In this document: positions 22,329 through 26,872 of the stretch, piece after piece | How the letters are laid out: every line of letters begins with the position of its first letter | Position numbering within the stretch: position 1 is the first letter of the stretch | Origin: Candidatus Uhrbacteria bacterium GW2011_GWC2_41_11 | GTDB lineage: Bacteria > Patescibacteriota > Patescibacteriia > UBA9934 > GWF2-40-263 | DNA: 38,424 nucleotides | Direction of reading: 5' to 3' | Assembly: GCA_000996355.1 (NCBI GenBank) | Contig: LCAH01000014.1 | Span: 1-38,424 of the forward strand | The notes under the pieces: generated by a model | Seen by the model: the letters and a program-made list of their open reading frames with translations, nothing else | Told to the model about the DNA's origin: nothing | Database searches by the model: none | Program-made: the position numbers and the translations under genes

Positions 22329-22385
22329 TAAAACTTTCTTAGTTTAAATGAGTTAAAAAGACGCCATTTTTAGAAGCTTTTAAAC

Positions 22386-22415
22386 AGAAAACCCGCTGGA
22401 AGAACTACCAGCGGG
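22386..22415 (-). terminator. intrinsic terminator of the GC-rich minus-strand unit
   Basis: Minus strand CCCGCTGG tagttctt CCAGCGGG TTTTC. Confidence 0.8.
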
Positions 22416-22635
22416 CCTTATCTTGAAATGGAGACCTCTCAAAAAAAACGAGAACTGAGGCCTCCTGTCGGGCGAGGTTGAACGGTTGTTGGTTTTCTAG
22501 GGCGGACGGAGCCCGGGGTGCCGAATTCGATTGTCCGGCTCCGTAGGACTTTTCCTGGTGTGCGACCCAGGAAAGACAATACCTGTCGCACCAGGTTTTT
22601 CGATGAACTACCCAAACTTCGATGGGTACCTCATC

Positions 22636-22650
22636 GATCACCTCCTTTCT
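22636..22650 (-). promoter_or_regulatory. 15-nt extended Shine-Dalgarno sequence
   Basis: Minus strand AGAAAGGAGGTGATC, complementary to the canonical 16S 3' tail GATCACCTCCTTTCT; ATG follows at 22634-22632. Confidence 0.6.
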
Positions 22651-22745
22651 TTACCGGTCACGCGTGGTACAGGCGTGTTTTGCGTAACCGGATTAATTTT
22701 TGGAACAGCGCCAGCGCCCATCATTTGCGACTGGCGCGAAAAAAC

Positions 22746-23087
22746 TCACTCCTGCGGCTGGCTCTGGCTGGCCGCCTTCATGCGGTCCCAGCCATTGTTC
22801 CGGACAGGCTTGGGAACCTTGACCGGGTTGTCCTCAGCGCCACCCTTTACCCATCCGCCCTCGAAAATTCGAGCGGCGGGCACGGCGGGCTGACTGGTTT
22901 TCATCCCGTCAAGAATCTTGCGGGCATCTTTCGATGCCGACGTCCGAACGAGACGTTCGGCCACAGTCTCGGCCGGACGACCGACGTTTGCCCGCTGCTC
23001 GGCCTGACGAGCCTTGCGAACAGCCTCGAACTCGGCCTGGCGGCGCGTGGCCTCGGCAAACTGATCCGCGTACTTGAACATACGCAT
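22746..23087 (-). CDS. small charged coiled-coil-like hypothetical protein
   Basis: MRMFKYADQFAEATRRQAEFEAVRKARQAEQRANVGRPAETVAERL...; GGAG 7 nt upstream of the ATG. Confidence 0.6.
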   Translation of the reverse strand: MRMFKYADQFAEATRRQAEFEAVRKARQAEQRANVGRPAETVAERLVRTSASKDARKILDGMKTSQPAVPAARIFEGGWVKGGAEDNPVKVPKPVRNNGWDRMKAASQSQPQE

Positions 23088-23623
23088 CTCAGCACTCCGA
23101 ACCTCGCCGACTTAACCACCCGGTCGAGCTTCTCCCGCATGGTGCCGAAGTCGGGCGTGGCGCCGTGATCGGCGTCGTCGAGGTCTTTGCAGACCACACA
23201 GGTCAAGGCGGACTTCCGCCAGGCCTGGTGCTTGGCTGCGATCTCAGCCTGTTCGGCATCAATCTTGGCCTGTCGTGCCTCGGCTTCAGCCTTGCGCTCG
23301 GCCTCGATGGCTTCGCGCGCTGCACGCTCTGCCGTTCGCTTCTCGAGCTGGGCAAGAGCGCTAGAAAGGGTAAACTTATAGCCCTTGTCCCAAAGCCCGT
23401 TCTGACCCACGCAGCGTTTGCAGACTGCCTGCGCGACGACCATCTCGGCCGTGAGATCACGCATCGAGACCCCAGCAGCCTCGGCGATTTCCTCAAATTT
23501 TGGAACCATAAAATTGGTTCCTTCCGCCTTATATCCACACACCGTACAGGTGTGCTTGGCGGAAGTGGCAGTCTCGGTCCCTGCGGTCGCGGTCGTCTGG
23601 CCGTTGGTCTGATCCTTATTCAT
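22901..23623 (-). CDS. zinc-ribbon plus Ala/Glu/Arg-rich coiled-coil hypothetical protein; C-terminal ~65 residues probably out of frame
   Basis: SD GAGGAG before ATG 23623; MNKDQTNGQ...CTVCGYK...CKRCVGQ...LTCVVCKDL. After about 23115 the product reads as low-complexity R/S/P sequence overlapping the next ORF. Confidence 0.6.
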   Translation of the reverse strand: MNKDQTNGQTTATAGTETATSAKHTCTVCGYKAEGTNFMVPKFEEIAEAAGVSMRDLTAEMVVAQAVCKRCVGQNGLWDKGYKFTLSSALAQLEKRTAERAAREAIEAERKAEAEARQAKIDAEQAEIAAKHQAWRKSALTCVVCKDLDDADHGATPDFGTMREKLDRVVKSARFGVLRCVCSSTRISLPRPRAARPSSRLFARLVRPSSGQTSVVRPRLWPNVSFGRRHRKMPARFLTG

Positions 23624-23690
23624 TTTTAACTCCTCAAAACGCTGGGTTCGCTCCCAGCAAGCAGAGAACATCTACCGAACTTCAGGAGGA

Positions 23691-23901
23691 TATTCCTCCC
23701 ACGATTCTGAAGGTGATTTTCTTTTGCAAGAAAATCCCTAAGGAATCCAGTGACCTGTTGCAAGAACCGGTATAGATTCCAAGAATATCAGGCGTATGAA
23801 GGCAGCTAGTGCAAGCACCAGGGACCTTCATTTGATATTCCTATCCGCTTTCTCAGTGAAGAGAAGGCGGGCTCTCTCCCCTCAGAATCGTGGAAGAAAT
23901 A
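23691..23901 (-). ncRNA. candidate multibranch structured leader RNA
   Basis: 20-bp closing stem (18 Watson-Crick + 2 G.U in minus-strand RNA) enclosing four hairpin arms; three share CTTGCA in the loop region. Confidence 0.65.
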
Positions 23902-23939
23902 ATGTTTTATAAAAAATTGTTCCTTATCTTGATGAATAC

Positions 23940-26199: not shown

Positions 26200-26444
26200 T
26201 TTTAACTGTTCATGTTCAACCAAATGCCAGACAAACAGAAATTACAAACTGGTTGGATGATACAACGGTCAAAATTCGAGTTGCAGCCATCGCTGAAAAA
26301 GGAAAAGCAAATGAAGCATTATTACGATTCCTTGCAGATTATTTTGAAACAAATATTTCTTCAATCAATCTTATCCGTGGAGGAATGACAAAAATGAAAC
26401 AGATTGAGATTCCAGATTCCCTATGGTTTGTACGTAGAACTTAA
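26196..26444 (+). CDS. DUF167/YggU-family protein
   Basis: VHVQPNARQTEITNWLDDTTVKIRVAAIAEKGKANEALLRFLADYF; 4-bp overlap with nfo. Confidence 0.92.
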   Translation: MILTVHVQPNARQTEITNWLDDTTVKIRVAAIAEKGKANEALLRFLADYFETNISSINLIRGGMTKMKQIEIPDSLWFVRRT

Positions 26445-26445
26445 T

Positions 26446-26569
26446 CATTTTAGACCAGTTTAGGTGCGCGGGGTGCAAGTTCTTCCGAGCCGTACTACAG
26501 ATGGTACGGTGAGGAAAGCTTGGGTCCCCGCAAACCATGCACCAGATGGTGCATGGTAAACCTAAAATG
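26446..26569. ncRNA. candidate compact structured RNA, family not recognised
   Basis: Closing stem CATTTTAG/CTAAAATG around stem-loop 1 (GCGGGG/CCCCGC, CAAG/CTTG, TTCC/GGAA, CCGTAC/GTACGG) and stem-loop 2 (CCATGCACC agat GGTGCATGG). Confidence 0.6.
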
Positions 26570-26595
26570 GGCAAAATGAGGAAGTTCTAAACAAA

Positions 26596-26619
26596 AACGG
26601 CCTTGAAGCCGTTTTTATG
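26596..26619. terminator. intrinsic terminator between convergent units
   Basis: AAAAACGGC cttgaa GCCGTTTTT. Confidence 0.8.
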
Positions 26620-26872
26620 GTACACAATCTTCTCCTCCACGCGACCACGGATGACACTTAGAAAGACGTTTTCCTGCAAGCCATAATCCGCGGAAACATC
26701 CATATTTTTCAATGGCCTGTCGTCCATATTCCGAGCAGCTCGGATAAAAACGACAGTATCCGTACGGATAGAGCCATCGCAAAATTCCATGATCAAATGA
26801 CAATGTTTTTTGATAAATTTTGATCAAAATGATCAGAAAAAAACAAGGAATTTTAAATATTTTCTTAAACAT
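26615..26872 (-). CDS. yidD: membrane protein insertion efficiency factor YidD
   Basis: [42 protein letters not shown]; adjacent to rnpA and rpmH. Confidence 0.94.

Follow-up and report, generated by a model that had tools for sequence, protein, structure and literature searches.

The 38,424-nucleotide stretch of DNA analysed here (the window, contig C14 of the host genome G000) carries on its minus strand a member of a conserved RNA family, and this family is the strongest new fact to come from our analysis. The window's copy is a complete structured RNA at 23691-23901 that is predicted to fold into four hairpins enclosed by a closing helix, P1, of about 23 bp (-99.5 kcal/mol, z -9.3 relative to shuffled versions of itself). 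Random genomic stretches of the same size give z values of -0.56±1.47 and the intergenic tile overlapping 23901-23691 is the second lowest of 238 by fold, so that the structured leader proposed at this position in an earlier note on the same DNA is indeed exceptional relative to the genome. The conserved core, at 23740-23880 of the minus strand, consists of GGGAGAGAG, a hairpin, GAAUAUCAAAUG...CAUACGC..GAUAUUC and a further hairpin with ACC...GGUCACUGG, and is matched by the covariance model with an E value of 4.9e-22, a score obtained for a sequence that belongs to the model's own seed. The refined model finds one copy in G000.

Homologues were found by sequence and then by structure. A blastn search with the unit as query against 97 relatives returned weak matches that fall within the leader, in three species belonging to a single genus, with the blocks GAGAGAGC, GAAUAUCAAAUG, CAUACGC..GAUAUUC and GGUCACUGGAU in common and with intervening hairpins that differ in sequence yet retain the same pairing. 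A covariance model, R1, built from four sequences matches 14 of 15 genomes, 13 of them clearly at E 7.7e-7 or better (best 1.8e-31), with 12 of the 13 genomes of the same family giving clear matches and the match in G011 marginal (E 0.036); because these genomes were partly picked on BLAST hints the counts are not an unbiased prevalence, but the matches themselves are strong. The matched set includes the genus's only other genome and one genome of a sister family, and three further species, beyond the 15 genomes, have the RNA by BLAST. Over 25 distinct sequences 32 of 38 base pairs show two-sided compensatory changes in an alignment fitted to the model, for which an alignment made without the model serves as control; the latter recovers the fold, with two-sided changes at 20 of 28 pairs. 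Paired cells amount to 95%, two-sided cells number 211 (59±7 in shuffled and 20-29 in slid controls) and the covariation score is 0.64, as against 0.22 for shuffled and at most 0.11 for slid alignments; compensatory changes thus exceed both controls, as befits a conserved structured RNA. The earlier note had named in advance a lack of homologous loci or of covariation as grounds for dropping its proposal; such loci exist, and the covariation in them is strong.

The 55:13 ratio of G-U to A-C pairs, calculated with constitutive wobble pairs excluded, indicates that it is the sense, transcribed, strand that folds. Judged from these comparisons, the element is a conserved sense-strand RNA of several hairpins with a long closing helix, in which sequence varies and pairing is kept. 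This strand bias is also why we disfavour selection at the level of DNA, in which a folded single-stranded recombination or insertion site, similar to attC, would move GC-rich cargo. Such a site could account for the arrays of alternating RNA and variable cargo that are seen in relatives, for the different genomic site occupied in G000 and for the empty site in G009, but the RNA is always oriented along operon transcription, most copies stay at one locus and no recombinase was found in the unit; we regard this explanation as very unlikely.

Rfam contains no family at or above its gathering threshold in the window, nor, at E≤1, any match to the RNA of 17 homologous loci, and Pfam, PHROGs and NCBIfam gave no family above cut-off and no convincing match for the unit's proteins, consistent with the previous assertion that the segment matches no recognised system. 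No description of either the RNA or the unit was found in the open-access literature, phage and plasmid collections gave no match to the unit, and pattern scans of viral contigs returned either no RNA or, in eight cases, matches that fail the model. The leaders of zinc-ribbon genes in other families were also considered as homologues of the RNA and rejected; they fold strongly but do not match the RNA model.

The RNA lies in a GC-rich island that adjoins rnhB (RNase HII) on one side and tig (trigger factor) on the other. The host genome is 1.07 Mb with a GC content of 41%, its size and genes pointing to a member of the CPR/Patescibacteria, and was covered genome-wide (1,064,299 of 1,066,372 bases); GC reaches 0.605 at 22601-23600 against 0.414±0.038 for 1-kb windows of the genome, placing the island in the top 0.09%. 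Codon usage, which the earlier note had suggested profiling along with GC, deviates similarly, with a GC3 of 0.71 for the first open reading frame, ORF1, against 0.34±0.11. A sigma-70-type promoter, TTGACA-17-TAAAGT, is present in a promoter scan at 23968-23940 of the minus strand, as had been claimed, in a layout seen in relatives and followed by the initial transcribed sequence CATCAAGATAAGG; there are 5 promoter-like sites in the region where 0.7 are expected. At the other end a terminator-like hairpin with a 12-bp stem and a U-rich tail, at about 22384-22419 of the minus strand, agrees with the predicted intrinsic terminator; a simpler terminator scan gave the 22419-22384 stem on the plus strand only. 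The description of a GC-rich, self-contained segment with its own promoter and terminator therefore stands.

In G009, a member of the same family, rnhB and tig are 118 bp apart and the island is absent, so that G000 has one unit more here than G009 does. It is thus plausible that the unit was acquired at, or relocated to, the rnhB/tig site, in keeping with the suggestion that it was horizontally acquired. The abrupt change in GC and the failure to find a second copy of the unit's ORFs elsewhere in G000 could also reflect contamination or a chimeric assembly of a GC-rich foreign piece, but a host-like, AT-rich promoter is joined directly to the island, the RNA has homologues in the same genome family, and other GC-rich islands of G000 have the same promoter type, one of them with a related zinc-ribbon domain. 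We consider such an artefact highly improbable.

ORF1 is preceded by a Shine-Dalgarno-like AGGAG (23630-23634, minus strand) 6 nt 5' of its ATG. Its coding part, 23090-23623 of the minus strand as judged from coding phase and an AlphaFold2 model, comprises an N-terminal zinc ribbon (CxxC...VP...CxxC), a long coiled coil and the start of a second CxxC module, while the open frame runs on, out of coding phase, to 22901. Codon-phase composition follows the ORF1 frame as far as about 23090 and the -1 frame beyond it, with no ORF1 stop at that point, and ORF2 (22746-23087, minus strand), which lies in that -1 frame, overlaps ORF1 as read by 187 nt out of phase. The homologue in G030 is a single ORF of 299 residues with two zinc-binding modules (L186:6948-7844). 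Hence, rather than the two separate proteins that had been proposed, ORF1 and ORF2 probably belong to a single gene that a frameshift has split, with ORF2 its C-terminal half; the frameshift may be a mutation, an assembly error or a programmed shift, and inspection by eye revealed no canonical slippery heptamer. The AlphaFold2 model predicts with confidence a small domain resembling a zinc ribbon and a helix some 54 residues long (pLDDT of about 95 across both), for which a PDB fold search returned no match better than E 0.39. In its CxxC...CxxC zinc-binding layout followed by a helix the modelled protein resembles small zinc-ribbon and treble-clef proteins, and it differs from them in the VP and DL motifs between the knuckles and in having no Pfam entry and no better PDB match.

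Direct searches for homologues of ORF1 and ORF2 found none in phages, plasmids, viral contigs, a set with one genome per species, or 196 relatives; the zinc-ribbon family was reached through a wider genome sample and profiles, in which it is sparse, with members in 7 of the 389 genomes sampled from the phylum. Its members share C-x2/4-C, VP and DL motifs, C-x2-C/H and then a coiled coil, and most of them sit in islands that are GC-richer than their surroundings, exceptions being G667, which is GC-rich throughout, and G451, where there is little GC contrast. No transposase, reverse transcriptase or endonuclease was found in the unit with Pfam, PHROGs or NCBIfam, nor was any Pfam or NCBIfam match to a known toxin-antitoxin family, and the two ORFs look like one gene.

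Beyond ORF2 lies a hairpin-rich 3' untranslated stretch (22420-22745, minus strand, by fold) that includes AAAGGAGGTGATCGATG and a possible 8-codon ORF. The interval 22380-22745 does fold better than its shuffles (z -5.3), so that part of the claim for a 3' RNA domain holds, but no homologue of this stretch appeared in the blastn search of the unit against 97 relatives and it amounts to hairpin-rich sequence. The 'RNA-protein-protein-RNA' plan of the earlier note is consequently not borne out: the ORFs are probably one gene, the 3' stretch lacks homologues and in relatives the 5' RNA need not be a leader.

One locus holds the RNA in most of these genomes, with glyS, frr, a repeat lipoprotein and holB to one side of it and a trmB-like regulator and a glycosyltransferase to the other (genes named by sequence resemblance, not HMM scans), and the GC-rich ORFs between holB and the trmB-like gene rarely match across genera (E 1e-4). 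The operon at the holB-trmB locus of G000 is present and lacks the RNA even when filters are removed; the G000 copy lies away from it, at an unusual site. The zinc-ribbon HMM matches downstream of the RNA in G000, G030, G003 and G002 (E 1.1e-6 or better) and weakly in G004 and G005. RNA and zinc-ribbon gene therefore occur together in three genomes besides G000, and this recurrence, with the homologous loci and the covariation, upholds the suggestion of an undescribed structured RNA accompanied by orphan GC-rich proteins.

The position of the RNA in its operons bears directly on function. In most genomes it sits 50-300 nt upstream of an ORF, and first copies are preceded by TTGACA-17-TATAGT-type promoters, several with CATCAAGAT-like starts; the layout TTGACA-17-TATAGT/TAGAGT...CATCAAGAT is found 5' of the RNA in G003, G039 and G019. 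A terminator-like hairpin with a U-run occurs within about 130 nt upstream of the core in 11 genomes (G002, G003, G004, G005, G009, G019, G020, G021, G030, G035 and G039), and its loop is often UCUCU, complementary to the conserved GAGAGAG. Because relatives have this hairpin between promoter and core, a cis-acting leader, riboswitch-like or protein-binding, in which the RNA would respond to some signal and regulate the GC-rich genes downstream, is a serious rival, one that the usual 5' position, the strong conserved promoter and the two tandem copies 47 nt apart in G019 would also suit. Nevertheless, the window's copy has no such upstream hairpin, a P1 this long is unlikely as a switching helix, and, where a riboswitch would be expected upstream of one pathway's genes, the genes downstream here are mostly unrelated among genera and some copies have none. 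Three copies reach a terminator with no ORF between, at +34 in G006, +47 for the second copy of G038 and +156 in G054; the G006 copy also has its own promoter, and in G054 a K/R/A-rich gene lies upstream of the RNA. On balance, we think a regulatory leader somewhat doubtful.

A stable RNA acting in trans is favoured over a riboswitch because these three gene-free copies end at a terminator and because second copies lack promoters of their own. The RNA may stand at the 5' end of an operon, between genes or at the 3' end, with second copies downstream within the operon in G003, G004, G021, G030, G035 and G038; a strict scan found no promoter before those of G003, G004, G021, G030 and G035, a scan that does not pick up the TTGACA-TATAAA promoters evident in G002, G009 and G020. 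In G001 the next terminator after the RNA belongs to a tRNA. P1 is 14-27 bp long in 23 of 25 copies whatever the context (23 bp in the window's copy; the two others have 6 and 0 bp), and, as in RNase III-processed RNAs, this long closing helix is variable in sequence and paired. It is this helix, together with the gene-free copies and a placement that does not depend on position, that leads us to favour a released, stable RNA. The RNA would be made within the GC-rich operon transcript and cut out at P1, probably by RNase III, of which the host genome encodes a homologue. Pre-rRNAs are cut by RNase III in the same manner. Once excised, it would persist and act in trans, perhaps in complex with a coiled-coil protein encoded on the same transcript, for instance the zinc-ribbon protein, with the protein genes of the operon evolving fast or being exchanged while the RNA stays. 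That the island is a self-contained transcription unit with one copy of the new RNA and a zinc-ribbon/coiled-coil gene, and that the RNA is excised to act in trans, we hold jointly to be about evenly balanced between right and wrong.

Binding by a co-encoded protein is a guess, made because RNA and protein genes co-occur, and the protein beside the RNA differs among genomes, which speaks against assuming a fixed partner; a ribonucleoprotein is possible. A more elaborate version, speculative and in our opinion rather unlikely, is a lineage-specific ribonucleoprotein built on a nearly universal stable RNA of one small-genome family, which would be cut out of GC-rich operons that are themselves hypervariable, would be bound by zinc-ribbon/coiled-coil or K/R/A-rich proteins encoded with it and would help the cell to deal with host cells or phages.

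The raiA motif/ModT, ROOL, GOLLD and OLE are large structured RNAs that act in trans or have no known function. ModT is described in PMC11706538. The island RNA is like them in being a conserved multi-branched RNA with no evident ligand or single regulated pathway, but it differs in having no Rfam match at E≤1 (17 loci) and in its taxa and context. With riboswitches and attenuator leaders it shares the mostly 5' position, the strong promoter and, in relatives, the upstream terminator-like hairpin, while differing in gene-free copies at operon 3' ends and in the lack of a common regulated gene. Morons, autonomous units in phage genomes, likewise have their own promoter and terminator, deviant GC and an orphan gene between conserved genes, but the island is in a bacterial chromosome, has a conserved RNA inside and matches nothing in the phage and plasmid collections. 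The RNA is kept in nearly all tested genomes of a bacterial family with genomes of about 1 Mb, while adjoining genes turn over, and is therefore probably important there. Most such bacteria have not been cultured, and few RNAs specific to them have been described; the RNA family, its fold, the covariance model and the zinc-ribbon family make the question of function directly testable.

Several further observations were made in passing. Just past the terminator (window 22382-22355) is AAGCTTCTAAAAATGGCGTCTTTT, with a near-exact repeat at C2:126408 and variants at C7:39285 and C10:24923, and at 26442-26662 of the window's minus strand, near the end of a short ORF on that strand, there is a very stable fold (z -8.8, background sample). 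Other isolated GC-rich single-gene islands of G000 are C12:7351-8320, with two tandem promoters and one region resembling the window's (blastn E 5.6e-6), C3:51902-52732 (L007), which encodes a zinc-ribbon-like protein (HMM E 3e-4), C2:99637-100902 and C17:6375-7727. Downstream of the RNA in G002, G009, G020 and G039 a recurring GTCGTGAGAC followed by a hairpin is possibly another conserved RNA motif. Directly 3' of a zinc-ribbon unit in G639 (L093:2015-2365) lies a sequence that by eye resembles a tmRNA gene. Finally, just 5' of the zinc-ribbon ORF, loci L111 and L112 (in two species, G344 and G428) share a leader of another kind, with 94% identity across 93 nt beside very different proteins, whose long closing helix, TTTAGCGCTAAATAAAGGGTTG/CAACCTTTTATTGAGCG, perhaps marks a second RNA family.
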